Shown here in pieces: positions 280 through 33,904 of a DNA stretch of 33,904 bases. The position numbers and the translations under genes are program-made. The notes below the pieces were generated by a model that did no database searches, had not been told where the DNA came from, and saw nothing but the letters and a program-made list of their open reading frames with translations. The stretch's first letter is position 1, and each line of letters starts with the position of its first letter. The stretch comes from Planctomycetaceae bacterium. GTDB lineage: Bacteria; Planctomycetota; Planctomycetia; Pirellulales; UBA1268. The DNA lies in the NCBI GenBank assembly GCA_947449135.1, contig CANFQO010000032.1:1-33904 (forward strand), written 5' to 3'.

Positions 280-523
280 GTTGTTCGCCCTCCTGGCGAC
301 CTCCGGGTTGTACCGCCAACGGCCTCATTTCCCGAGAGGACTTTCAGGTCTTCTTGGGCAGCGAGTTGGGCAGCGCGGTTGCTGGATGGGAGATCGGGTT
401 TTCCGCTGATTCCCGTGGAATGGACCGTCTTCTCACCGCACGGATTGCCGCGCCGGCATCACCTGGGGGCTTCCGGCAGGTTGCGGAAGCTGGACGGGTT
501 GGAAATCCGCCGCCGGAGCCGCG

Positions 524-529
524 TACACT
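524..529 (+). promoter_or_regulatory. Possible -10 box directly before the metallopeptidase start
   Basis: TACACT lies 7 nt before the ATG at 537, and no Shine-Dalgarno sequence is seen there. If this is the -10 hexamer, transcription would begin at about the ATG and the message would be leaderless. The upstream TTGGAA (499-504) is 19 nt away and a poor -35 partner. Inference only. Confidence 0.3.
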
Positions 530-536
530 CGCCGCC

Positions 537-1877
537 ATGCGTCTGTGGTCGCTCATCGTCGTCGCAGTCATTGCTACCATCGTCGCCGGCTCGACCAGCG
601 CAGCCGATCCGGAAATCGTCGCGGCAGGGCCCTCCATCGGTGCGTTGGTGGCGTCGGCGCGGCGGGCCGGGCTGCGGGTGTTGGAAAGCGATCACCTCGT
701 GCTCATCACCGATCGGCCGGCCCGCGTTGGCGATGGCGTCGAGGATCTGCCACGTCTCTTCGACGAGGCGTGGGCGACATGGTGCGACCATTTTGAGCTC
801 GACTCGGCGCAGCATCGCCAGTGGCGGGCCTGCGGCTGTCTCATCGTGGATCGCGAACGATTTCGCGCCGCCGGGCTCCTACCGGACGGGGCCTCGGAAT
901 TTGCCAACGGCTTTTGCAATCGCGAGCGATTCTGGATGGCCGACCAGTCCAATCCTGCCTACCGGCGGCACCTGCTGCTCCACGAGGGCGTGCATGCTTT
1001 CACGCTCACGCTCCGCGGGCTCGACACGCCATCGTGGTACATGGAGGGGATCGCCGAGTATCTGGCCACGCACCGGCTCAATGACGATGGCCGTTTCGTG
1101 CCGACGCCACTGCCGCTGCAGGCGGGCGACGTCGAGCAGTTGGGCCGCATCGAGAAGCTCCGCACCTTGCGGGCCGCTGGCACGTGCCCAGGCCTTGAGG
1201 ATGTCTTCGCCACGCCGGCCGTGAATCACCGCGATCTCTCCGCCTATGCCGCGAGTTGGGCGGCGGTGGCGTTGCTCTCTCGGCATCCCGAGCATGCCCG
1301 CAGCTTTGCCGCAGCCGAGCGAGGTCCGCTCGATGGGGCGTTCACGGAGCGGCTCAGGTCATCTCCTGGATGGGATGCGGAACGGACCGCACGCAATTTC
1401 GACGCGCTCACCGACGAAATCGACTACGGCTACGACTTCTCTCGGTCTCGCGTTGACTGGGCTCCGGGCCAGCCGCTCGACACGCGTCAGGCGATCACCG
1501 TTGCGAGCGGCCGCGGCTGGCAGAACTCAGGCTGGTCGCTCCGCAAGGGGGAGCGTCATGGGATCAACGTGACGGGACGGTGCACGATCGGTTTGCTGGA
1601 GAGCACCTCCGCAGAGCCATCGGTGCGGCTGGAAACTGAGGCCGATGGTATCTCGCTTCGGTGGTATCGGGGCCGACCGCTCGGCAGGCTGCTCGTGGCG
1701 CAGTGGGTCGAACAGCCGGGCGACGGTGGTCGCCCCCGGTTCGTCGTGCTCGCCGAGGGTGGTCACGGCGAGTTCACGGCGGCCGCCGACGGCGTGGCCT
1801 ACTTCAAACTCAACGAACCACCGGGCGAACTGGCCGACAACGACGGTCACCTCACGGTCGAGGTCGGCCCCAAATAA
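537..1877 (+). CDS. Exported HExxH metallopeptidase-like protein (gluzincin type)
   Basis: Predicted 446-residue protein. The ATG at 537 is chosen because it begins a clean signal peptide (hydrophobic residues 5-17, cleavage near Ser-Ala-Ala, about residue 22); the open frame reaches back to 246 but without signal-peptide character. At residues 149-153 there is HEGVH, a zinc-binding HExxH motif, followed 17-21 residues later by [11 protein letters not shown] (Glu170 and Glu174). This matches the downstream Glu ligand of peptidase-MA-like gluzincins, including DUF1570-type proteins common in planctomycetes. It would therefore act as a zinc peptidase in the periplasm or at the cell surface. The C-terminal 200 residues are probably beta-rich and not recognised. 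No Shine-Dalgarno is visible. Substrate unknown; the peptidase assignment rests on the motif alone. Confidence 0.7.
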
Positions 1878-1905
1878 AAGGCAGCTGTCCCGTCGCTTCC
1901 GCTCC

Positions 1906-1983
1906 GGGCTTTTATTCGAGGGGTGCGCGACCGTTGATGGCTGCGGCACCCTTGCGATAAAAGCCCCGGGTGGAAACCCGGGG
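1906..1983. repeat. Composite inverted repeat between convergent genes
   Basis: Two stacked structures fill most of the gap between the metallopeptidase and gltD. Arms at 1906-1926 and 1946-1966 match in 17 of 21 positions when folded (shared ends GGGCTTTTAT and GGGTGC). They are followed by a perfect 8-bp hairpin at 1964-1983 (CCCCGGGT, loop GGAA, ACCCGGGG). The layout is like REP/BIME intergenic elements. No second copy was found in this window, so membership of a repeat family is inference. Confidence 0.5.
1956..1983 (-). terminator. Likely intrinsic terminator of lysR-gltB-gltD
   Basis: Read on the minus strand, the perfect 8-bp GC hairpin (1964-1983) is followed by CTTTTATCG, a short T-run. 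It begins 14 nt after the gltD stop codon, the right place and direction to end the glutamate synthase transcript. Confidence 0.5.
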
Positions 1984-1997
1984 ACTCCCGCTCCGGC

Positions 1998-3491
1998 TCA
2001 CGCGTGCACTGCGAACTCGCCCGCCGACAGGCTCGGCAGGTTCGTCTGGCCCATCAGCCAGAGGTCGACCGAGCGGGCCGCCTCGCGGCCCTCCTGGATC
2101 GCCCACACGACCAGCGACTGGCCACGACGCATGTCGCCGGCGGCAAACACGCCGTCCCGGCTCGTCTTGTAGTCGCCGCCGGTCTTGATGTTGCCTCGGG
2201 GATCGAGTTCGAGCCCCAGGTCCGCGATCGGCCCATGCTTCTCCGGTCCCATGAAGCCCATGGCCAAGAGTGCCAACTGGCACGGCCACTCCTGCTCGCT
2301 CCCTGGCACCTCACGAAACTTCTGCTGACCCGATGCAGCGTCGGTGTACCACTCGATCCGCACCGTCTTCACCGCCCGCACGTGCCCCTTGTCGTCTCCC
2401 AGGAATTCCTTCGAGAGGATGCCCCATTCGCGGCGGCAGCCCTCTTCGTGGGAGGAACTCGTTCGCAGGATCACCGGCCATAGCGGCCATGGCGTGTTTC
2501 CCGGTCGCTGGTCGCGCCGCGGATACTTCCCGAGGTCCGGCGGCTGCGGTAGCAGTTCGAACTGCGTCAGGCTCTTCGCACCCTGCCGGTTGCTCGTACC
2601 ATCGCAGTCCGAGCCCGTGTCGCCGCCACCGATCACGACGACGTCTTTTCCAGCGGCAAGGATCTGCTCCTGAACCTCGTCGCCGGCGTTGCGCTTGTTC
2701 TGTTGCGGCAGGAACTCCATTGCGTAGTGCACGCCCTTGAGTTCACGGCCCGGGATCGGCAGGTCGCGGCCGAGCGTCGCTCCGCCGGTGAGCAGCAGGG
2801 CGTCGTACTCGTCGCAGATGGACTGCGTGCTGACGTCGGTCCCCACGTTCACGCCACAACGGAACTCGACGCCTTCCTCACGAAGTTGTTCGACCCGCCG
2901 CCAGACACGCCACTTTTCCAGCTTAAAATCGGGGATGCCATACATCAGCAAGCCGCCCGGACGGTCGGCCCGCTCGAACACCGTGACCAGATGCCCCGCC
3001 CGGTTCAGCTGCTGCGCCGCCGCCAGGCCCGCCGGTCCGCTGCCGACGACCGCCACCCGCTTGCCGGTGCGCACTGCGGGCGGTTCGGGCACGACCCAGC
3101 CCTCGTCGAAGGCGCGGTCTGCGATCGTCATTTCGATCTGCTTGATCGCCACGGGGTCTTCGTTGATGCCGAGCACGCAGGCGGCCTCGCAGGGCGCGGG
3201 GCAGACGCGACCTGTGAACTCGGGGAAATTGTTGGTGGCGTGCAGCCGCTGGCTGGCTTCGTGCCACTGCTGGCGATACACGAGGTCGTTGAAGTCGGGA
3301 ATGATGTTCCCGAGTGGACAGCCCGTATGGCAGAAGGGAACACCACAGTCCATGCACCGGGCGCCCTGCTTCGAGAGTTCCTCCTGCGGGAGGATCGTCA
3401 GGAACTCGTTGTAGTGCTTGAGACGATCGGTGACCGGCGCGTAGCCACTCACCTTCCGCTCGTACTTCATGAATCCGCGCGGCTCACCCAT
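1998..3491 (-). CDS. gltD: Glutamate synthase (NADPH) small subunit
   Basis: A 497-residue beta subunit of glutamate synthase. It passes electrons from NADPH through FAD and iron-sulfur clusters to GltB, which makes two glutamates from glutamine and 2-oxoglutarate. Visible are N-terminal cluster cysteines (Cys46, 49, 54, 58 and Cys97, 101, 105), an FAD-binding GSGPAG fingerprint near residues 150-155 ([14 protein letters not shown]), and a second dinucleotide site [13 protein letters not shown] near residue 290 for NADPH. Length is normal for GltD. The ATG at 3491 overlaps the gltB stop by 8 nt (ATGGGTGA) and has AGGAG about 10 nt upstream inside gltB, so the two are translationally coupled. 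A Met at residue 8 is an alternative start. The hairpin at 1964-1983 probably ends the transcript. Confidence 0.95.
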
Positions 3492-15691: not shown

Positions 15692-16723
15692 TTAGGCGGT
15701 GATCCTGTGGCCGTGGAATGCCAGGCGTTCGCAGGCCGCCACCACGCGGTCGACATCGATTCCCGCCATCGCGAGCGTATCGGTCTTGCGATCTTCCCAC
15801 TTCGGCCGCAGCGCAGCTGGCGGTTCGACGGTGGTGTGAATGCTGCCGTAAGGACCATTGCGATCGGCGGGCACGGGGCCAAAGAGGCCGACGCAGGGCG
15901 TGCCCACCGCAGCCGCGAGATGCAGCGGACCAGTGTCGCCCGAGACGAATAGCCGTGCGAGTCGGCAGAGGCTGCCGAGATCCTGAAGCGTGGTCTGCGG
16001 TGCGACCACCGTCGCGTGCGGGGCGGCCGCGGCGATGCGATTGGCACTGTCCCGCTCCCGGTCGCCTCCCCAGACGATGATCGATGTCAGCCCATGGCGG
16101 TCGTGGAGGATCTGAGCCACCTCCGCGAACCGTTCCTCCGGCCAGATCTTCGACGGCCAGCCGGCGCCGGGATTGATCACGACCGGCGTGGACATGAGCC
16201 GCAGCGTTGTCAGCCACTCCTCCATGCGGTGGCGGCTCACAGGCCAGTCGGGCATGTTGAAGTCGGGCGTCACTACCCGCACCCCCAGCGGCTCGAGTAG
16301 CCCACAGTTGCGGTCAACCACATGCGTGGCCGTCGATGGGACTGCACAGTTGTAGGCCAGCCACGCCGCCTCACGCGACTCAGGTCGCGCGTGGCCGATC
16401 CGCAGGGAAGCGCCGGAGAGCCAGGTGGGGACGGCGCTCTTGAGCAGCCCCTGCATGTCGATCGCGACATCGGCGTGGAAGTCGATGAGCTGGCGGCGGA
16501 GCGCTCGCACCGCCTGCCATGATTTCATCCAGCCACGGGGCAGACGGAAGAGATGGTCGATGGCGGGATGGCCGGCAAGCACATCGGCGGCGCGGCCCTC
16601 GACCACCCAGCCAATCCGTGCGGTGGGAAACGCCCGCTTGATGGCGACGGCGGTGGGCACGCCATGGAGCACGTCGCCGATGGCGGAGAGCTTGACGAGA
16701 ACGATCGCACGTGGGGCTTCCAT
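15692..16723 (-). CDS. Glycosyltransferase family 9 (heptosyltransferase-like)
   Basis: A 343-residue GT-B fold glycosyltransferase of the ADP-heptose:LPS heptosyltransferase family, expected at the inner face of the cytoplasmic membrane in lipopolysaccharide core or related glycan synthesis. N-terminal VLVKLSAIGDVLHGVP holds the conserved Asp17 (GDVLH). The C-terminal half has VVINPGAGWPSKIWPEERFA and SGDTGPLHLAAAVGTPCVGL, typical of the nucleotide-sugar site. The ATG at 16723 is chosen because AGGGAG lies 8 nt upstream; the frame extends 23 codons further, to 16792, without support. Its stop abuts the inverted repeat at 15632-15690. No other LPS gene is nearby, so the exact sugar and acceptor stay open. 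Confidence 0.88.
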   Translation of the reverse strand: MEAPRAIVLVKLSAIGDVLHGVPTAVAIKRAFPTARIGWVVEGRAADVLAGHPAIDHLFRLPRGWMKSWQAVRALRRQLIDFHADVAIDMQGLLKSAVPTWLSGASLRIGHARPESREAAWLAYNCAVPSTATHVVDRNCGLLEPLGVRVVTPDFNMPDWPVSRHRMEEWLTTLRLMSTPVVINPGAGWPSKIWPEERFAEVAQILHDRHGLTSIIVWGGDRERDSANRIAAAAPHATVVAPQTTLQDLGSLCRLARLFVSGDTGPLHLAAAVGTPCVGLFGPVPADRNGPYGSIHTTVEPPAALRPKWEDRKTDTLAMAGIDVDRVVAACERLAFHGHRITA

Positions 16724-17013
16724 GCCGCGCACTCCCTGAACGAAAACTGTTGACAGCCCGGAAAGTTCATCGCAGCGGCGGATTTCCGACAAGTCCAGTT
16801 TGGCTGTCGGCTCCCGCCCGCGGGCCGCATCCAGCCCGACCAGCCTCGGTCGTTGCTTCTCGTGATCCGCTCCGCTCGGCCGACGCTTGCCGAAGTGCCG
16901 TTGGCGGACATACCTTTAGCAAAACGGCGGGACGGAGGAGAAACGAGAGGCGACGACTGTCAATGTCCCCTGGGCGGTCCATGGCTGTCGGTCGCATGCA
17001 ACGGGAACGACCT

Positions 17014-20000
17014 ATGCACCTCCGCCCGCTGCTTGTGATGCTTCTGGCCTTCGGAGCCGCGGCGGCGGCGCGGAACAACCCGGCCGCTGAACCATCTCCT
17101 CCGGCGTTCGACTTCGACCGGCAGATCGCGCCGCTGCTGATCTCGCGCTGTCTGGAATGCCACTCGGGAGCGAGCCCCGATGGCGGGCTGTCGCTCGTCG
17201 ACGTCGAAGGTGCGGCCAAGGGGGGAGAGAGCGGGCCGGCGCTCGAACCGGGGAACGCTCGAAGCCTCTTGCTTGCGCGGGTGGAGAGCAACGAGATGCC
17301 CCCCGAGCAACCACTTTCCGACGACGAGAAAGCGATCCTCCGCGCCTGGATCAAAAGAGGTGCTCCCTGGGGAACAGAGCCCCTCGATCCGCTCGCCGTC
17401 AGCACCGCGAAGCGTGCCGGACGGGATTGGTGGTCGCTCCAACCGCTCGCGGAATCCCCTCTCCCCGAGACGGCGCATGATCCGTGGGCACGCGGTCCGA
17501 TTGATGCCTGGGTGCTCGACAAGCTCCGACAGTCCAGCCTCGCTCCCTCGCTCCCAGCCGATCCTCGTCTCCTCATCCGTCGACTGTTCTTCGATCTCAT
17601 CGGCCTCCCGCCGAGCCCGCAGCAGGTCGAGGCGTTCATGGCCGATCCCTCGGAGGCCGCGTATGCCCGCCTCGTCGACGACCTCCTTGCCTCTCCCCAC
17701 TACGGCGAGCGTTGGGGGCGGCACTGGCTCGACATCGTCCGCTACACCGAGAGCGAGGGATTTGAATACGACCACCCGCGCGACCGCGCCTGGCACTACC
17801 GCGATTACGTGATCAAGAGCTTCAACAACGACAAGCCCTACGATCAATTCATGCGTGAGCAGCTGGCCGGCGATGTCCTCGAACCGGTGACGAGCGACGG
17901 CATCATCGCCACGAGCATGCTCGTCTGCGGTGCCTGGGACAGGGCCGGTAACGCCCAGGCCAATGCCACGCAGCGTGCCATCACGCGCGAGGAAGAGATG
18001 GAGGACATGATCAGCGTCGTAGGCCAGACGTTCCTCGGCCTGACGCTCAACTGCGCCCGCTGTCATGACCATAAATTCGATCCGGTGCCGCAGGAGGACT
18101 ATTTCCGCATCAAGGCCGTCTTCGATGGCATCAAGCACGGGGAACGATCGATCAGATCCCCTGCCGAGATCGAGGCACGAAAGCGGCAGGGGGCGGTGCG
18201 GGACGAACAGATGGCCGCCGAGCGGGTGACGATCGCCACCCTCCAACGGGAAGGGGCGCAGCGGGCTGCGGTACGCTCGCCGGATCGCAGCGGCCTGTCC
18301 CCGGGCCCGATGCCCCTCATCCGCTGGACATTTCGTGAAGGCACCGCACCGTCCGACGGCTTCCTCCACGGCGGCGCCGTGGTCGTCGGCGACCGGCTCC
18401 GGCTCGCCAAGGAGACGCAGTCCTTCTTCGAAAGCACTCCTATTCCCGAATCGATCCGGGAAAAGACGCTCGAGGCCTGGGTGGTGCTCACCGACCTCGC
18501 TCAGAGTGGCGGGGCGGCGATGTCGATCGAGAGCACCGCCGACCGCGACTTCGACGCGATCGTGTTTGGTGAGCGACAACCGCGGAAGTGGATCGCCGGC
18601 AGCGGTGGGTTTGCACGAACCCGCGATCTCGAAGCCGCCGAAGAAACCGCGACCACCGGTGAGCCGGTCCATATCGCGGCGGTCTATCGGGCCGACAACA
18701 GCATCACCCTCTACCGCAACGGCGAGCGCTATGCGGCTCCGTATGTCCCCTCGGCATCGCTTCGCACGTTTGAGAAGGGGACGGCGACGATCCTCATCGG
18801 TCTGCGGCACCATGGCGCCGGCAACGGCTTTTTCGACGGCGAGATCCTTCAGGCCGCCCTCCACGACCGGCCGCTCGGCGACGACGAGGTGGCTGCGGCA
18901 TTTCGGGCCGGGGGTTTCTCATTTTCGCAGGAGGAGATCCTCGCCTGCCTTGACGACGACGAGCGGAAGAGCCATGCCGAGGCAACCGCGCGAATTGACG
19001 CGCTCAAGAAGGAAGCGGAGGCTGCCGCAGCCGACACGGCTGTGTCGTATGTGGGCGTCCGTGTGGAGCCGGCGCCGACGGCCCTCCTGCAGCGCGGCAG
19101 CGTCACCTCCCCCGGCGAGATTGTCAGTCCATCCGGCCTCTCGGCGATCACCACCGTCGCCGCCGACCTCGGGCTCCCTTTCGATGCCCCCGAGGCCGAG
19201 CGACGCAAACGGTTCGCCGCCTGGATCGCTGATCGAGCCAATCCTCTCCCCGCCCGCGTGATCGCCAACCGGATCTGGCAGTACCACTTCGGCCGGGGGC
19301 TCGTGGCGACGCCGAGCGATTTCGGTCTCAATGGCGGCCGCCCGAGCCACCCCGAGCTGCTCGACTGGCTGGCAAGCGATCTCGTGCGGTCGGACTGGCG
19401 GCTCAAAAGCCTCCACCGCGCCATCGTCCTCTCCTCGACCTATCGGCAGGCCTCGACCCACGACGAAATGGCCGCCGCGATCGATGCCGACACGACGCTC
19501 CTGTGGCGCTATCCACCGCGGCGTCTCGAGGCCGAGGCGGTGCGGGATGCGATGCTCGCCGTGAGTGGCGAGCTCAATCCGGCCATGGGAGGCCCGAGCT
19601 TTCGCCCCTTCACGACGACGAGCTTCAACGCCACCTTCTACCACCCCATTGATCGCGACGATCCCGAGCTGAACCGGCGAACTGTCTACCGGATGAATGT
19701 CAACTCTGGGAAAGAGCCGCTCCTCGACGCATTCGACTGCCCGAGCCCGTCGGTGAAGACGCCGACGCGTGGTGAGACGATCACGCCGCTCCAATCGCTC
19801 TCGCTGATGAACAACAGCTTCGTCCAGCGGCAGGCCGATCGGCTCGCCGCCCGCGCCCTCGAAGCCGCCGCCGGCGACCTCCCCCTCGCGGTTGGCCGGG
19901 CCTACGAACGCGCCCTGGGGCGACAACCGACCGACGAGGAGCGGCAGCGCGCCGTAGCAGCGGCCGGGGATCGTGGGCTGCAAAGCGTCTGCTGGGCACT

Positions 20001-20034
20001 CCTCAATTCCAGTGAGTTTCTCTATGCCCGATGA
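17014..20034 (+). CDS. Planctomycete cytochrome-c/DUF1549/LamG/DUF1553 protein (PSD1 family)
   Basis: About 1006 residues, exported. The start at 17014 is chosen for the signal peptide (MHLRPLLVMLLAFGAAAAA) and GGGAA about 8 nt upstream; Met codons at 16996 and 16963 are alternatives. Domain order is: PSCyt1 cytochrome c with heme motif CLECH (Cys46, Cys49, His50) and MPPEQP (Met95, possible distal ligand); DUF1549 (about 155-365) ending in a second CxxCH (Cys347, Cys350, His351); an inserted LamG-like lectin fold (about 430-630); a helical linker; DUF1553 (about 740-1000). The gene overlaps the DUF1501 gene by 11 nt, the usual pairing. Family function is unproven; periplasmic electron transfer in polysaccharide breakdown has been suggested. 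16724-17013 holds no gene. Confidence 0.92.
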   Translation: MHLRPLLVMLLAFGAAAAARNNPAAEPSPPAFDFDRQIAPLLISRCLECHSGASPDGGLSLVDVEGAAKGGESGPALEPGNARSLLLARVESNEMPPEQPLSDDEKAILRAWIKRGAPWGTEPLDPLAVSTAKRAGRDWWSLQPLAESPLPETAHDPWARGPIDAWVLDKLRQSSLAPSLPADPRLLIRRLFFDLIGLPPSPQQVEAFMADPSEAAYARLVDDLLASPHYGERWGRHWLDIVRYTESEGFEYDHPRDRAWHYRDYVIKSFNNDKPYDQFMREQLAGDVLEPVTSDGIIATSMLVCGAWDRAGNAQANATQRAITREEEMEDMISVVGQTFLGLTLNCARCHDHKFDPVPQEDYFRIKAVFDGIKHGERSIRSPAEIEARKRQGAVRDEQMAAERVTIATLQREGAQRAAVRSPDRSGLSPGPMPLIRWTFREGTAPSDGFLHGGAVVVGDRLRLAKETQSFFESTPIPESIREKTLEAWVVLTDLAQSGGAAMSIESTADRDFDAIVFGERQPRKWIAGSGGFARTRDLEAAEETATTGEPVHIAAVYRADNSITLYRNGERYAAPYVPSASLRTFEKGTATILIGLRHHGAGNGFFDGEILQAALHDRPLGDDEVAAAFRAGGFSFSQEEILACLDDDERKSHAEATARIDALKKEAEAAAADTAVSYVGVRVEPAPTALLQRGSVTSPGEIVSPSGLSAITTVAADLGLPFDAPEAERRKRFAAWIADRANPLPARVIANRIWQYHFGRGLVATPSDFGLNGGRPSHPELLDWLASDLVRSDWRLKSLHRAIVLSSTYRQASTHDEMAAAIDADTTLLWRYPPRRLEAEAVRDAMLAVSGELNPAMGGPSFRPFTTTSFNATFYHPIDRDDPELNRRTVYRMNVNSGKEPLLDAFDCPSPSVKTPTRGETITPLQSLSLMNNSFVQRQADRLAARALEAAAGDLPLAVGRAYERALGRQPTDEERQRAVAAAGDRGLQSVCWALLNSSEFLYAR

Positions 20035-23128: not shown

Positions 23129-24661
23129 TCACGGCATCTTCTCGATGTCGCCCGGCTTCCAGCTCTTGGTGATGGCGGCTTCGGTCGGGCCGTAGAGACG
23201 AAGGACGGCGAAGTAGCCCTTGCCGGGCACCGTTGCGAGCCAGTTTCCCTCCTTGCCGGCGGGCGATGTGGGCCCGAGGAAGAGGTCCGTGCTGCCGTCG
23301 GCGTTCTGCGCCGGGGTGTCGCGTGACCCGAGCGACGGGAACGGCTGGCCGTTGGCGAGCCCCGATCCGTTTTCGGCCTCGTAGAGCGTCACCGACCAGA
23401 AGTTGGCGGCCGGGATGTCGCGAGGCAGACGAAGGCGGTAGCTGCTGCCACCCGACAGGTTCGCACCGCTGCTGTCGACGAAGGCGATCATGTACTTGGC
23501 GCCCCTGCCGGGAGACTGTGACAGCATTCCGGGGCTGACCGAGTAGTAGTTGGTGAAGAACCAGATCCGAGCATCGAGGTCGAGATACCCGCCTGCCACC
23601 CTGCGCCAGCCGAGATCGAAAGGCCCGCCGAGATTCTCTGGGGTCGCGTCGGCCATGGGATTGATCCACCGCCGATCGGGATAGATCCGCAGGGAACGGC
23701 CGGCGACCACATCTTCAAAGCCGATGACGCGGCTCATCTTGAAAGCCGTCCTCGCGGCGTGATCGAGGATCGCCCGTGTCTTTGCGTCGGGCTCGAAGGG
23801 CCGGCCCTTGGCAATGCCGATCGATGCCAGCATGCCGAGCGAATCGGAGTCGGCGAGACCGGCGCTCTCGCTCTCCACCAGTTTCTTGAGTTCGTCGAAG
23901 GCGGTGCCGTCGCTGATCGGCAGCATGTTGACCGGCACACCGGAGGCATCGGGAAACTGCATCGGCCTGGCGTTTTGTCTGCCGTTGAGCGGATAGATCT
24001 TCGACTGTTCGATGAGCGCGACGGCTGGCGTCAGGTTCTTCGGGTCTTGATAGAACGCTCGTAGGAAGACGAAGACGTTGTTGGTCGGCGAACGGTAGAC
24101 GAAAAAACCGTCCGGTACCGGCCCCTCGTAGCCGGGCGGCAGTAGCAGAAAGTTTCCACCCTTGCCGGCGTCGGGACCCGGCAGGCCAACGTCTCCAAAG
24201 AACCTGCCGCCATCGACCGGGATTGGCCGCTGCCAGGCATCGAGCAGAATGCCCTGGAGGTTGGGCGGAGCCTCGAACACCAGCGGACCGTCCTTGCCGA
24301 GGTCGACGTAGCCCATCGCGTAGATGACATCGGAGTTGGGGGTCGTGATCAGCGTCTTGGCGTCGAGCCGCTGCTTCCAGACCGGGAGCACGTCGTAGCC
24401 TGCGCCAAAGACTTTTTCCGAGCCGACCTTCATTCCGAGCGTGTTGATCAGCGGCAGGGCCCAGAGATAGGCCTGCGTCGCGCGTTGGAACAGCAGCTCG
24501 TCTCGTAGGGTGCGGGCGGTCTCCTCAGTCGGCCTGTTCTCCGCGAACGGCAGGCTGCTGAGTGCCTCGAAGCGGGTAGCCTGAGCCAACGCCGGCCCGG
24601 CGTGGATGAACGCGGCAGCGACCGCACTGACAAGGAGCAGGTGCATGCGTGGGGTGTTCAT
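23129..24661 (-). CDS. Exported DUF1254/DUF1214 protein, copy 1
   Basis: A 510-residue secreted protein with signal peptide (HLLLVSAVAAAFIHAGPALAQ, cleavage after ALA, about residue 26). DUF1254 signatures are at about 55-180 (QRATQAYLWALPLINTLG; TTPNSDVIYAMGYVDLGKDG) and the DUF1214 block at about 400-505 (IPAANFWSVTLYEAENGSG; NWLATVPGKGYFAVLRLYGPTEAAITKSW). It is a paralogue of the following gene (21613-23085), probably from tandem duplication, and lies 59 nt downstream of an acyl-CoA dehydrogenase-like gene on the same strand. Ribosome site weak. Function unknown; two diverged copies side by side suggest they form a hetero-oligomer or act on related substrates. Confidence 0.88.
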   Translation of the reverse strand: MNTPRMHLLLVSAVAAAFIHAGPALAQATRFEALSSLPFAENRPTEETARTLRDELLFQRATQAYLWALPLINTLGMKVGSEKVFGAGYDVLPVWKQRLDAKTLITTPNSDVIYAMGYVDLGKDGPLVFEAPPNLQGILLDAWQRPIPVDGGRFFGDVGLPGPDAGKGGNFLLLPPGYEGPVPDGFFVYRSPTNNVFVFLRAFYQDPKNLTPAVALIEQSKIYPLNGRQNARPMQFPDASGVPVNMLPISDGTAFDELKKLVESESAGLADSDSLGMLASIGIAKGRPFEPDAKTRAILDHAARTAFKMSRVIGFEDVVAGRSLRIYPDRRWINPMADATPENLGGPFDLGWRRVAGGYLDLDARIWFFTNYYSVSPGMLSQSPGRGAKYMIAFVDSSGANLSGGSSYRLRLPRDIPAANFWSVTLYEAENGSGLANGQPFPSLGSRDTPAQNADGSTDLFLGPTSPAGKEGNWLATVPGKGYFAVLRLYGPTEAAITKSWKPGDIEKMP

Positions 24662-29326: not shown

Positions 29327-30709
29327 TCAGCGATCCTCGTCGAACGACCGTTTGCTACGGAGCAGGTGGTGGTAGTGCTGCGCGAAGCGGTGGGCCTCAT
29401 CCCGCACGTATTCCAGCAGTCGCAGTGAATAGGAATCCCGCGACAGCCGCAGCGGCTCGCTCCGGCCAGGCAGGAAGACCTCCTCCTCCCGCTTGGCCAG
29501 CGAGATCACGCAGGGAGCCTCGATCCCCAGCGACTCGAGTGCATCCATGGCCGCCGAGAGTTGCCCCTTGCCGCCGTCCACCAAGAAGATGTCCGGAAGC
29601 GGGGCCCCTTCGCGGACGAGCCGGGCAAACCGCCGTGACACCACCTCGTGAATGCTCTTGAAGTCGTCGATGCCTGCCACCGTCTTGATGCGATAGCGTT
29701 TGTAACCCGGCTTGAACGGCAGCCCGTCGATGAACTGCACAAGACTCGCGACCGTCTCGTTGCCGGCCAGATGGGCGATGTCGACCCCTTCGATCACACG
29801 CGGTGGCCGCGGCAGCCCGAGCACCTTCTCGAGGCCCGCCAGTCCCTTCTTCGGATCGACGAGAAATACCTCCGGCTGCACGTGCTCCTCCAGATCACCC
29901 CGCTGATCGAGCGTTTCCAGCAGCTGGATCTCATCGCGGAGCCGTGCGGCCTGTTCGAACTCGAGCCGGCCCGAGGCGGCGAGCATCTCCTGCTTCATCT
30001 CCTCGAGCAGGCGTTTCTTACCACCGTCGAGAAATGTCTTCAGACGGTTGATATCGCGACGGTACTCGTCTTTTGAGATCCGCAGATTGCAGGGTGCGGT
30101 GCACTGGTCGATCGAGGCGAGCAGGCATGGGCGGAACCACCGCCATTGCTCGTCGTTGGCATCGATGTCGAGCGAGCAAGTGCGGAATTTGAAGATCCGC
30201 TGCAGCACAACGATCGCGCCGCGGAGGCTGCCGGCGCTCGTGAACGGGCCGTAGAGCTTCACGCCCTTCTGCCGCGGAGTGCGAGTGAACTCGACCCGCG
30301 GAAAATCCTCGTGGGTCGTGATCTGCAGATAGGGGAATGTTTTGTCGTCCTTGAGGTCGGAGTTGAACCGCGGCTGCACATCCTTGACGAGCCGGCTTTC
30401 CAGCAGCAGGGCATCCACCTCGCTGTCGGCCTCCAGATAGTCGATGTCGCGGATCTCCTGCACGAGATCGGCGGTCCGGCGGTCCTGCTCGGCGGCCTTC
30501 AGAAAATAGCTTCCGGCCCGGGCCCGCAGGTTCTTCGCCTTGCCGACGTAGATCACGCGGCCGGCGGCATCTTTCATCAGATAGACGCCCGGCGTCTGCG
30601 GAAACGATTTCACTTTCTTCGCCGCTGCGGCCCGATCGCCAGTGGTCACCGTCTGATCGGTGTCGGCGGGGGTGGATTCGGCGGCGTCGGATGGGTCGTG
30701 GTCACTCAC
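29327..30709 (-). CDS. uvrC: UvrABC system protein C, short form
   Basis: A 460-residue excinuclease subunit that makes both incisions around DNA lesions in nucleotide excision repair. Present are the GIY-YIG nuclease (40-115: PGVYLMKD, VIYVGKAKNLRAR), the four cysteines expected to hold an iron-sulfur cluster (Cys178, 195, 203, 207), a UVR domain that contacts UvrB (about 223-260), and the RNase H-like nuclease with Asp310, Asp348/349, Asp378 (VDGGKGQL) and His440 (RDEAHRF). Compared with the usual ~600 residues, two parts are missing: about 100 residues between the UVR and RNase H domains, and the C-terminal helix-hairpin-helix DNA-binding domain after residue 460. The next frames downstream do not supply it. 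The start is a GTG at 30709 after TAGAAT plus 6 nt; a low-complexity acidic leader precedes the nuclease. Confidence 0.9.
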   Translation of the reverse strand: MSDHDPSDAAESTPADTDQTVTTGDRAAAAKKVKSFPQTPGVYLMKDAAGRVIYVGKAKNLRARAGSYFLKAAEQDRRTADLVQEIRDIDYLEADSEVDALLLESRLVKDVQPRFNSDLKDDKTFPYLQITTHEDFPRVEFTRTPRQKGVKLYGPFTSAGSLRGAIVVLQRIFKFRTCSLDIDANDEQWRWFRPCLLASIDQCTAPCNLRISKDEYRRDINRLKTFLDGGKKRLLEEMKQEMLAASGRLEFEQAARLRDEIQLLETLDQRGDLEEHVQPEVFLVDPKKGLAGLEKVLGLPRPPRVIEGVDIAHLAGNETVASLVQFIDGLPFKPGYKRYRIKTVAGIDDFKSIHEVVSRRFARLVREGAPLPDIFLVDGGKGQLSAAMDALESLGIEAPCVISLAKREEEVFLPGRSEPLRLSRDSYSLRLLEYVRDEAHRFAQHYHHLLRSKRSFDEDR

Positions 30710-30745: not shown

Positions 30746-30959
30746 AACGGTTCGGGGCTGCCCACGCCCCGTCGCCGGACGTTCGCTACGTCGACCAATC
30801 CGCCTCCGGCGGATCGGTGCCCGCTGGCCGTCGCTCACTCGATGCTGACTGCGCTCCGGCTGGCGGCTTTCGCGCCGTCGCCGCCGTCCCGGCGTCGGCT
30901 CCGGCTTACAGGAGCCGTGCAGAGCACGGCTCCCAATCTCTTGCCTGCGCTTGTCAGCA
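30746..30959. repeat. Long direct repeat, copy A
   Basis: This copy is matched in the same orientation by copy B at 33720-33904. The head (30746-30787, 42 nt) differs by one base, the tail (30831-30959, 129 nt) is identical, and the centre differs (43 nt here, 14 nt in B). The tail holds nested hairpins: GGAGCCGTGC, loop AGA, GCACGGCTCC (30911-30933), and an overlapping alternative CGGCTCC/GGAGCCG. The centre holds ATCCGCC, TCC, GGCGGAT. No protein is supported on either strand. It occupies most of the 468-nt gap between uvrC and the oxygenase gene; the remaining 30960-31177 shows no clear feature beyond a weak promoter-like TTGTAC/TAGGCT near 31096. Confidence 0.85.
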
Positions 30960-31177
30960 ACGCCGGCCCTCGGGACATGGGCAGACCCTCCCGGATGCGT
31001 CTGTGCGGCCTGAAGAAGGCGAGATGCCGAGGAATCTGTTGCGGTCGTCGTGACGTCGGACGTCGCCAGGCGAACCCGTTTTGCTACCCCAGGCTTGTAC
31101 AGGCAACGGGACGGACTAGGCTGCACCTGAGCGAATCCACTGTCTGCCCGATCCGTTCCTCCCGGTGATGTGAATCC

Positions 31178-31987
31178 ATGGCTGTGGCCAAGTCCCCCGA
31201 GGCTGAAGCAGTTTCCCGCCGCGGGCTACTGGTGGGCGGGGTTGCGGCATTGGCCACGGGTGTCGTCGGTGCTGCCGGCGGCTATCAGGCGAGGCGGTTT
31301 CGCGAACGCATGATCACACCCGCCGCCGACTCGGCGACCTCCGAGTTCCGCCGGCACGCGGCCGCGATCCGTGCCACCCAGTCGCGACAGACCGTGGAAG
31401 ACGTCGTCGCACTGCGTAGGAAGTATCAGGATCCGATCTTTGGCAAGGCCCGCGTGTGGGACATGATCGAAAAGCTGGGAATGTGCGTGGACGCCAGCGA
31501 TGACTCGCTGATGTGCACGAGTCAACTCTTGCACGTGCAACAGGTGCTCGAGGCGATGGAACGAGATGGCGTGCAGGACCGTGACCTGTTCCTCGTCGCG
31601 CTGCTGCACGACATAGGCAAGGTCATGCTGCTGACCAATGCGGCCCCCGAGCACGTGGTCGGCTACATCAGCCCGTTGGGTGAGCCGTCTCATGGCATCG
31701 GTCTCGAGAACGTGATCTTCCAGTTCGGTCACGACGAGTTCATCTACTCGAGGATCAAGGACCTCGTCCCGGAGCGTGTCGCGTGGACCGTCCGCTATCA
31801 CAGTGCCATGGTCGACACGCTGCGGCCCTACTGCAATGAGCAGGATCTCGCACACCTGGACGGGTGCCTCGCAGTGTTCCAGCCATTCGATCTGTGTCAC
31901 AAGTCGTACCGTCATCTGCCGCACGTCGACATGGCAAAGTATCGTGCACTGATCGAGGACACGTTCCCGCAGCCCATCCTGTTTTGA
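31178..31987 (+). CDS. Myo-inositol oxygenase-like HD-domain diiron protein with Tat/anchor N-terminus
   Basis: A 269-residue protein. Residues 70-269 follow the myo-inositol oxygenase (MIOX) family throughout: QTVEDVVALRRKY, VDASDD, LLHDIGKVM, GLENVIFQFGHDEFIY, VRYHSAM, CNEQDLAHLDG, FDLCHKSYRHLPHVD. All six diiron ligands are present: His119, His144, Asp145, His185, His208, Asp238. MIOX cleaves myo-inositol with O2 to glucuronate. Pocket residues equivalent to mouse Asp85, Lys127, Ser221 and Lys257 are kept (Asp105, Lys148, Ser209, Lys242), but mouse Asp142 is Tyr163 and about 30 residues of the following loop are missing. The N-terminus SRRGLLVGGVAALATGVVG is a twin-Arg signal or membrane anchor, unusual for a cytosolic family. 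Fold and metal site confident; substrate unknown. Confidence 0.85.
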   Translation: MAVAKSPEAEAVSRRGLLVGGVAALATGVVGAAGGYQARRFRERMITPAADSATSEFRRHAAAIRATQSRQTVEDVVALRRKYQDPIFGKARVWDMIEKLGMCVDASDDSLMCTSQLLHVQQVLEAMERDGVQDRDLFLVALLHDIGKVMLLTNAAPEHVVGYISPLGEPSHGIGLENVIFQFGHDEFIYSRIKDLVPERVAWTVRYHSAMVDTLRPYCNEQDLAHLDGCLAVFQPFDLCHKSYRHLPHVDMAKYRALIEDTFPQPILF

Positions 31988-32073
31988 GACAGCGCCGTGG
32001 GCGATCCAGGGGCGTATAGGCCTCCCTCGCCTGTCTGGCGGGCGGGCACGGTGCCCGGACGAACAACCACACC

Positions 32074-33711
32074 ATGATCTCCTTGCTGCCGGGACGATTT
32101 GCCATCACATGGCTTGGCGCGATCATGGCGCTGACCGTGTTCGCGGTCGCATGGCCACGAGGATCGCGAGCATTCAACCGGTTCGTGGCGGCCGGTTTGG
32201 TCACCGTGGCTCGCCGTCCCTGGCTGATCGCGTTTCCAGTCATCGCCATGGGAGTGGTCGTGCTGTGGGCCCACCATGGGTTTCCCCAGCCACGAATCCA
32301 CGACGAGTTCAGCTATCTGCTGGCTTCCGACACGTTTGCGCATGGTCGGCTGGCGAATGCGCCGCATCCGCTGTGGCAGTTCTTCGAGACTTTTCATGTC
32401 AACCAGCAGCCGTTCTATGTATCGATGTACCAGCCCGGCTTTGGACTGGCCTTGGCCGCGGGCCAACGGTTCCTCGGGCATCCATGGTTCGCCGTATGGA
32501 TTTCCGCTATCGCTCTGGCATTGGCCGTCCACTGGGCTGCACGCGCGTGGGTTTCACAGCTGTGGGCTGCCGCGGCCGGACTCGTCACCGCCTGCATCGT
32601 GTCCCGTGGCTACTGGCTCGACAGTTACTGGGGGGGGACACTGCCTGCCATCGCCGGCGCCCTCGTGGTAGGGGCGTGGCCTCGCGTCATCCGTGCGGCG
32701 AATCGAGATGCAGCGTCGGTAATTGCCGCGGCTGTCCCCTTGGCAGCGGGTGGGGTGCTCTTGCTCTTCACGCGGCCCTATGAGGGACTCGCCTTGGTGC
32801 TGCCACTCGCAGTCGGCCTCGCGATGTCGCCCATGCCTTCACGGTCGCACGCGGCGTGGATCGTCACCTGCACGATCGCCTTGGGGATCGGGTTGGCCGG
32901 GCTGGCCTCCTACAATTGGCACACGACGGGGACCATGTTGACCACGCCCTACGGGCTGAACCTGTTGTCTTATCATCACCGCAAACTCTTCGTGTTTGGT
33001 GCCGATCGTGATCCCCCTCCCGTCTACCGGCATGAAGTCATGCGGCGGATGTACTCCGAGGAGTTCCAGCTTCGGCCATTTTCCGCCGAGGCGATTCGAC
33101 AACACATCGTGCCGACCATGTCGTTTTACGGCGCACCGCTGCAACTGATCACGGTTGCCGCGATGCCGTGGCTCTTCCGCAACCGCCGCAGCCGTCCACT
33201 CCTCCTTGCGACCGGCTGTGTGTGCATCGCGGCGCTGCTGACCGTCTTCATCCGGCCCCACTATCTGGCACCAGCGGCCGCGGGCATCGTCATTCTCACC
33301 ACGCAAGGGTTTCGGGTGGTGTCGACGCTGCGCTGGCGAAGGCATCGATTCGGCCGCACAGTCGCCTACGGTTTTCTGGTGTGTTGGCTGGTGGTGGCCT
33401 ATGGCTACGGCGTGGTGCAGCAAATACGAACGGAGAATCCTCCGACGTGGGTTCGGGAACGCACGCGGATCACCGAGGAACTCACTCGGGCGGGCGGACA
33501 GCATCTCGTGCTCGTTCGATACTCGGCAGAACACCGTCCTCACGACGAATGGGTCTACAACGGAGCCAGCCTGGGATCTGACGCCCAGATTCTTTGGGCA
33601 CGCGCTATGGATGAACAGTCGGATGGCAGACTCATGCGGCATGAGGCCGACCGCACGATCTGGATGGTCGAGCCCGACTCAGACGGCAGGCTGCAACGCC
33701 TTACGCCCTGA
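32074..33711 (+). CDS. GT-C type membrane glycosyltransferase-like protein
   Basis: A 545-residue integral membrane protein with about 10-11 hydrophobic segments up to residue ~460 and a soluble C-terminal tail of about 90 residues. After the second helix comes a periplasmic loop with RIHDEFSYLLASDTFAHGRL (Asp77-Glu78), the acidic motif expected in PMT/ArnT-like GT-C enzymes, which move sugars from lipid carriers to acceptors on the outer face of the membrane; NAPHPLWQFFETFHV and SMYQPGFGLALA follow. It lies 86 nt downstream of the MIOX-like gene on the same strand, probably in one transcript. Its stop lies 8 nt before direct repeat copy B. Donor and acceptor unknown. No Shine-Dalgarno is clear at the ATG. 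Confidence 0.75.
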   Translation: MISLLPGRFAITWLGAIMALTVFAVAWPRGSRAFNRFVAAGLVTVARRPWLIAFPVIAMGVVVLWAHHGFPQPRIHDEFSYLLASDTFAHGRLANAPHPLWQFFETFHVNQQPFYVSMYQPGFGLALAAGQRFLGHPWFAVWISAIALALAVHWAARAWVSQLWAAAAGLVTACIVSRGYWLDSYWGGTLPAIAGALVVGAWPRVIRAANRDAASVIAAAVPLAAGGVLLLFTRPYEGLALVLPLAVGLAMSPMPSRSHAAWIVTCTIALGIGLAGLASYNWHTTGTMLTTPYGLNLLSYHHRKLFVFGADRDPPPVYRHEVMRRMYSEEFQLRPFSAEAIRQHIVPTMSFYGAPLQLITVAAMPWLFRNRRSRPLLLATGCVCIAALLTVFIRPHYLAPAAAGIVILTTQGFRVVSTLRWRRHRFGRTVAYGFLVCWLVVAYGYGVVQQIRTENPPTWVRERTRITEELTRAGGQHLVLVRYSAEHRPHDEWVYNGASLGSDAQILWARAMDEQSDGRLMRHEADRTIWMVEPDSDGRLQRLTP

Positions 33712-33719
33712 GCAGGTCG

Positions 33720-33904
33720 AACGGTTCGGGGCTGCCCATGCCCCGTCGCCGGACGTTCGCTCCTGCCAGTGCCCTTCGCTCACTCGATGCTGACTGCGCT
33801 CCGGCTGGCGGCTTTCGCGCCGTCGCCGCCGTCCCGGCGTCGGCTCCGGCTTACAGGAGCCGTGCAGAGCACGGCTCCCAATCTCTTGCCTGCGCTTGTC
33901 AGCA
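33720..33904. repeat. Long direct repeat, copy B, cut by window end
   Basis: Same orientation as copy A (30746-30959). Head 33720-33761 differs from A by one base, the short centre 33762-33775 is unlike A, and tail 33776-33904 is identical to A over 129 nt to the last base of the window, so the true right end is not seen. It carries the same GGAGCCGTGC/GCACGGCTCC hairpin (33856-33878). With copy A it brackets the MIOX-like and GT-C-like genes. Confidence 0.85.

Follow-up and report, generated by a model that had tools for sequence, protein, structure and literature searches.

A two-gene cassette between copies of a family-specific hairpin repeat in a Planctomycetaceae genome

In a draft genome of a Planctomycetaceae bacterium (3.69 Mb, 169 contigs, 96% complete), two genes at a contig end lie between near-identical repeats, which raises the question of how the genes arrived there and whether the repeats had a part in it. 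The window analysed is the entire contig, C32, with a length of 33,904 nt. A sequence-only reading had described a MIOX-like and a GT-C-like gene bracketed, with nothing else between, by near-identical direct repeats that share a 42-nt head (one mismatch) and a perfect 129-nt tail about 2.97 kb apart; our coordinates and gene calls agree with this bracketing, and the repeat dimensions were reproduced. The heads (30746-30787 and 33720-33761) are 98% identical, and the 135-nt tails (30825-30959 and 33770-33904) are 99% identical, with an exact match of 129 nt inside them (30831-30959 and 33776-33904). The two copies, A and B, belong to an interspersed repeat that we call R1; they point the same way, with their heads spaced 2974 nt apart, and copy B is truncated at the final base of the contig. 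The features referred to below are as follows.

16711-20034, window: PSCyt1/PSCyt2/PSD1 protein, planctomycete-type
29327..30709, minus strand: uvrC-type gene (TIGR00194), the conserved gene to the left of the insertion site
30749..30996, plus strand: R1 copy A, complete, with the long variant of both apical modules and a slightly degenerate right end
30831..30959, plus strand: 129 nt within A that recur exactly as the last 129 nt of C32, probably an assembler k-mer junction
31178..31987, plus strand: MIOX-like gene, 269 aa (Pfam PF05153, E 4.4e-24; PDB 2huo/2ibn, inositol oxygenase)
32074..33711, plus strand: membrane-protein gene, 545 aa, multi-helix, putative GT-C glycosyltransferase
33723..33904, plus strand: R1 copy B, starting 11 nt past the membrane-protein stop codon (last base 33711) and cut short where the contig stops
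Contig C148, locus positions 1195-1878: REP-associated tyrosine transposase-like (Y1_Tnp) gene, the one in the genome, near a contig end

Judged by its sequence, R1 is a non-coding interspersed hairpin repeat that is family-specific in the searches made. The source genome has 46 R1 heads (28 nt, up to 3 mismatches; none in a reversed control) and the tail hairpin in seven places. With up to 2 mismatches, the head counts are 38 in the source and 34, 51, 26, and 46 in the other four genomes of its genus. R1 is present in 52 of the 72 family genomes and 9 of the 12 genera (up to 3 mismatches), and in an order sample of 196 genomes (30-nt head, up to 2 mismatches) it occurs in 21 of 36 family members and in none of the 160 others. 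Searches of plasmid and phage collections found no R1, Rfam returned sub-threshold hits and none at the gathering score, and a literature search yielded no paper that we recognised as describing it. The R1 family appears to be undescribed, while its kind (REP/MITE-like) is already known.

The short-form consensus of R1 is 145 nt long, compared with 248 nt for copy A, starts with GGTTCGGG, and finishes with CACGGAT. Its predicted fold (-84.4 kcal/mol) is a hairpin over the full length, topped by two apical hairpins, and it has imperfect terminal inverted repeats. Among 75 copies, 13 of the 40 consensus pairs are changed on both sides, including a pair (columns 16 and 126) that connects both ends of the repeat; this count scores an RNAalifold structure on the very alignment from which it was derived, with no phylogenetic control. 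The apical modules are exchangeable between copies, and both A and B have the long second module. All 50 R1 hits lie outside called genes: 14 are in convergent, 17 in tandem, and 4 in divergent spacers and 15 are at contig edges, whereas all gene pairs comprise 40 convergent, 175 tandem, and 43 divergent ones (genes from our own caller; some long copies are split and counted twice). Convergent spacers are over-represented among R1 sites and divergent ones are avoided; with the cassette in place, copy A stands in a divergent spacer, a context otherwise rare for R1. A second repeat of about 100 nt, containing GGCCCGGAGGGCCGGG, often follows R1 directly (for example at C9 140-250 and at two further loci), the two together making a composite repeat some 250 nt long. 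Small hairpins with a CATCCTG loop and varying but complementary stems recur in R1 and in neighbouring repeats, in this genome's own loci and in related ones.

The genes of the cassette have few relatives. The MIOX-like protein scores 85.9 bits against PF05153 (curated cut-off 25), and its N-terminus carries what we take to be a twin-arginine-like motif (predicted). No Pfam, NCBIfam, or PDB match was found for the 545-aa membrane protein, and its AlphaFold (AF2) model, with a mean pLDDT of 39.5, is too poor for a fold search; the GT-C label, which comes from the sequence-only reading, is putative. A search of the 71 other family genomes, which span 12 genera, detected neither gene (E 1e-10). 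The cassette is therefore variable, being present in the source alone among 72 family genomes. MIOX occurs in 3 of 392 phylum genomes, the source included. Relatives of the membrane protein occur in 35 of 396 order genomes, again including the source, with at most 39% identity in other families; around 14 of these relatives, no MIOX gene lies within 3.0-4.6 kb.

A single scan of GTDB contigs recovered two MIOX relatives, both acidobacterial, with 69% (Bryobacterales, PNAJ01000075.1) and 58% (CAIXXM010000159.1) identity. In PNAJ01000075.1, from an Acidobacteriota MAG, a relative of the membrane protein (49% identity by tblastn) begins at the end of the MIOX gene, in the same strand and order as in the cassette; CAIXXM010000159.1 has no membrane-protein relative within 16.8 kb, and R1 is absent from both loci. 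The Bryobacterales pair is at locus positions 515-3027, and further glycan-type genes, as read from translations, adjoin it. Viral contigs contained no MIOX relative, and plasmids contained no membrane-protein relative and two distant MIOX relatives (28%). The absence of the cassette from the family and the adjacent pair in the acidobacterial MAG strongly support the horizontal gain of the cassette as a two-gene unit. From few sequences, we infer that the donor phylum was Acidobacteriota. The GC content of the cassette genes is 0.62-0.63, compared with 0.62-0.67 in 14 other genes of the window, and on codon score the membrane-protein gene ranks last of the 16. The contig end is unlikely to be a foreign contaminant, since both ends of the cassette abut R1, which was found in this family alone, and neither GC content nor codon use clearly sets the genes apart.

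Of 30 family genomes sampled, 27 have the uvrC gene that lies to the left of the cassette, and we compared 12 uvrC loci from relatives and the start of contig C9 of the source genome. A phosphoglucomutase gene is directly upstream of uvrC, about 32-458 nt away, in 7 of the 12 loci. It is about 1.7 and 7.9 kb off in G056 and G014, respectively, with other genes between; G007 and G012 have other genes and no phosphoglucomutase in the stretch examined, and in G009 the contig finishes 378 nt on, leaving the right neighbour beyond view. In the source genome, phosphoglucomutase is encoded at 256-2151 of C9, and C9 starts inside an R1. Cassette-free relatives with a single R1, which the sequence-only reading had proposed looking for, do exist: G011 and G009 have one complete copy upstream of uvrC, oriented as in the source, and G008 retains a remnant (the last 29 positions). 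In the nine other loci, the 1.2 kb next to uvrC are free of R1. Because the full copies and the remnant occur without the cassette, this comparison of sequences shows that R1 is the older occupant of the site and the cassette came later. Copy B and the R1 at the start of C9 differ in 3 of 103 overlapping bases and their junction is unassembled, so they may be distinct copies, strain variants, or the flanks of an unresolved stretch.

Different genes fill the spacer upstream of uvrC in G007, G056, G012, and G014 (sulfatase-like by eye in G007 and G056). Because R1 is absent over 1.2 kb from uvrC in these loci, the spacer takes insertions without R1, and it gives the impression of a general site for insertions.

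The explanation that we favour, and that holds about half of our confidence, is that the two-gene unit was gained at a pre-existing R1, most likely by recombination between R1 copies; R1 may have been the landing point of the cassette. One R1 sat between uvrC and the phosphoglucomutase gene before the genus diversified, as the full copies in G009 and G011 and the remnant in G008 show. The MIOX-like and membrane-protein unit, whose nearest known relative is the acidobacterial MAG pair, would then have entered the lineage on DNA that already had R1, for instance from a different R1 carrier within the family. Integration would have followed by RecA-type recombination between this R1 and the resident one, so that an R1 now flanks the unit on either side. 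Such direct copies would permit loss or duplication of the cassette. This explanation draws on the empty sites with a single R1, the start of C9 inside R1 beside phosphoglucomutase, the missing cassette in 71 family genomes, and the Bryobacterales pair without R1. There is a precedent in O157-antigen clusters, where REP sequences are reported at the recombination points that surround the transferred genes (PMC3158064). In 54 gaps from stretches chosen around R1, however, indels of at least 500 nt are found in 4 of 16 gaps with R1 and 8 of 38 others. The lack of indel enrichment at R1, the near-chance number of R1 pairs described below, and the R1-free insertions count against R1-mediated integration, as do the unassembled junction between B and C9, with its 3 differences, and the passage of the A-cassette join through the 129-mer that B also has. 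A role for R1 as a general hotspot of gain and loss was rejected, as these 54 gaps show no enrichment. A P-type metal ATPase gene (as read from its translation) adjoins R1 in G008 and G009 and is missing between the same flanks in the source (C30, about position 23673); one R1 alone is beside this difference.

The most serious competitor, clearly less probable than the favoured explanation in our estimation but holding a substantial minority of our confidence, is that independent events are responsible: the gene pair would have been inserted by another route in a tolerant spacer, and the right-hand R1 would reflect separate spread or chance. R1 is numerous, with 46 heads in 3.69 Mb, a density at which 0.84 same-orientation pairs 0.5-3.5 kb apart are expected by chance and one is seen (full heads only; a partial-head R1 at C70:6733 would give a second pair). 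By count alone the A/B pair is therefore not beyond chance. The sequence-only reading had set its cassette against the picture of hundreds of scattered repeat copies and a conserved cassette; the approximately 46 heads and the non-conserved cassette depart from that picture, while its concern about chance placement of an abundant repeat stands. In addition, only 12 of 44 R1 clusters of the source had a counterpart R1 in a relative with agreement on both sides (among loci around R1, with contig breaks reducing the count), and relatives without R1 have other genes in this spacer. Set against these points, independent events require two coincidences in a class of spacer that makes up roughly 1.4% of all spacers (a rough estimate), and A and B share the same orientation.

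The exact match between A and B has a bearing on the assembly itself. In a comparison of 27 contig ends of the source genome, the end of C76 and the start of C137 have exactly 129 terminal nt in common, both reaching the contig end. Several other ends match elsewhere over 39-125 nt (109 nt twice) with a partner that is not also an end, and most have no match within the stretches compared. The recurrence of exactly 129 nt in the C76/C137 pair suggests that this length is probably the assembler k-mer (k = 129), in which case C32 would stop where two paths enter one k-mer, and the length of the perfect identity gives no date. Other copies with the long module differ from A in 2-5 of 129 positions and among themselves in 3-7 of 129 (where the whole stretch is comparable), and the identity of A and B over the k-mer is slightly closer than usual but not exceptional. 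The earlier suggestion that perfect identity points to recent spread or gene conversion is weakened accordingly, as 129 nt is probably fixed by the k-mer and other long copies are only 2-7 positions apart.

The join between A and the cassette runs through the 129-mer common to B, and the cassette could have been beside an R1 elsewhere in the genome and misjoined to uvrC through this 129-mer. We regard such an artefact as improbable, though worth keeping in mind. Consistent with it, B terminates at the exact 129-mer also present in A, and the C76/C137 pair shares exactly 129 nt; C9 is no exact continuation of B; and the last 109 nt of C108 equal part of C2, indicating that contig ends in this genome do run into other R1 copies. 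However, the head of A and the bases past the 129-mer are unique to C32 among the seven tail-hairpin places, and the exact 129-mer is in no other binned contig of the genome.

A broader version of the favoured explanation, in which R1 copies serve across the family as structured landing pads where foreign cargo genes are taken up and given up again, with the process ongoing at this locus in the sampled population through duplicated or circular cassettes, is doubtful. Such cassettes would explain why B runs into the exact sequence of A and why the 129-mer is in no other binned contig. Even less probable is an ancestral cassette lost in relatives by recombination between R1 copies that left one behind: the single R1 in G009 and G011 is as expected of such loss, but the cassette is absent from 71 of 72 family genomes across 12 genera, 9 of 12 syntenic loci have no R1 at the site, and MIOX is missing in 389 of 392 phylum genomes. 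The least credible is a transposable unit with R1 ends (a composite transposon or MITE-bounded cassette mobilised by a transposase in trans), since the imperfect terminal inverted repeats of R1, the two copies bracketing the genes, and the one REP-associated tyrosine transposase-like gene are outweighed by that gene's lack of a nearby R1 and its score of 60.1 (NCBIfam cut-off 80), and by the lack of a second full-head R1 pair of such spacing among the 46 heads.

R1 is absent from the 1.9-kb locus of the Y1_Tnp gene, where the contig end restricts the view, and RAYT-driven mobility of R1 was rejected because the genome has a single RAYT-like gene with no R1 alongside. A different short repeat-like sequence is found beside this gene.

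The locus is a worked case in which a dispersed palindromic repeat coincides with both borders of two horizontally acquired genes, and near relatives still show the site as it was before insertion. What appears to be new is the R1 family; REP-type repeats are already known, as is the fact that they can coincide with points of recombination (PMC3733652, PMC3158064). R1 adds a structured repeat family that matched no described one and was limited to one planctomycete family in our searches. In metagenome assemblies, repeats such as R1 also determine where contigs stop and can give the appearance of "perfect repeats".

Among known systems, a composite transposon differs from the cassette, which has only two cargo genes between its copies, a non-coding R1, and no transposase in the flanks. 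ERIC sequences and MITEs are large, palindromic, non-coding interspersed repeats with terminal inverted repeats; R1 resembles them in size, terminal inverted repeats, and lack of coding capacity and differs in having swappable long apical modules and no identified cognate transposase. REP and BIME sequences (GTAG and CGTC superfamilies) are associated with RAYTs and are reported in the planctomycete R. baltica (PMC3733652). R1 is like them in being intergenic, palindromic, and multi-copy, with compensatory stem changes and mainly convergent or unidirectional spacers, and unlike them in its length (at least 145 nt, compared with the 20-40 nt stem-loop of REP), in having no GTAG or CGTC end tag, and in not flanking the RAYT-like gene of the genome (PMC3733652). 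The nearest parallel to the junctions is the exchange of O157-antigen clusters, in which extragenic palindromes are reported to coincide with the junctions of transferred genes, there glycan clusters; that case is a replacement among strains of one species, whereas here an insertion has no equivalent in congeners (PMC3158064). With mobile insertion cassettes or MITE-bounded units, as these are described, the locus shares cargo between repeated ends and no transposase, whereas it differs from both in that its R1 copies are direct, whole, and members of an old dispersed family.
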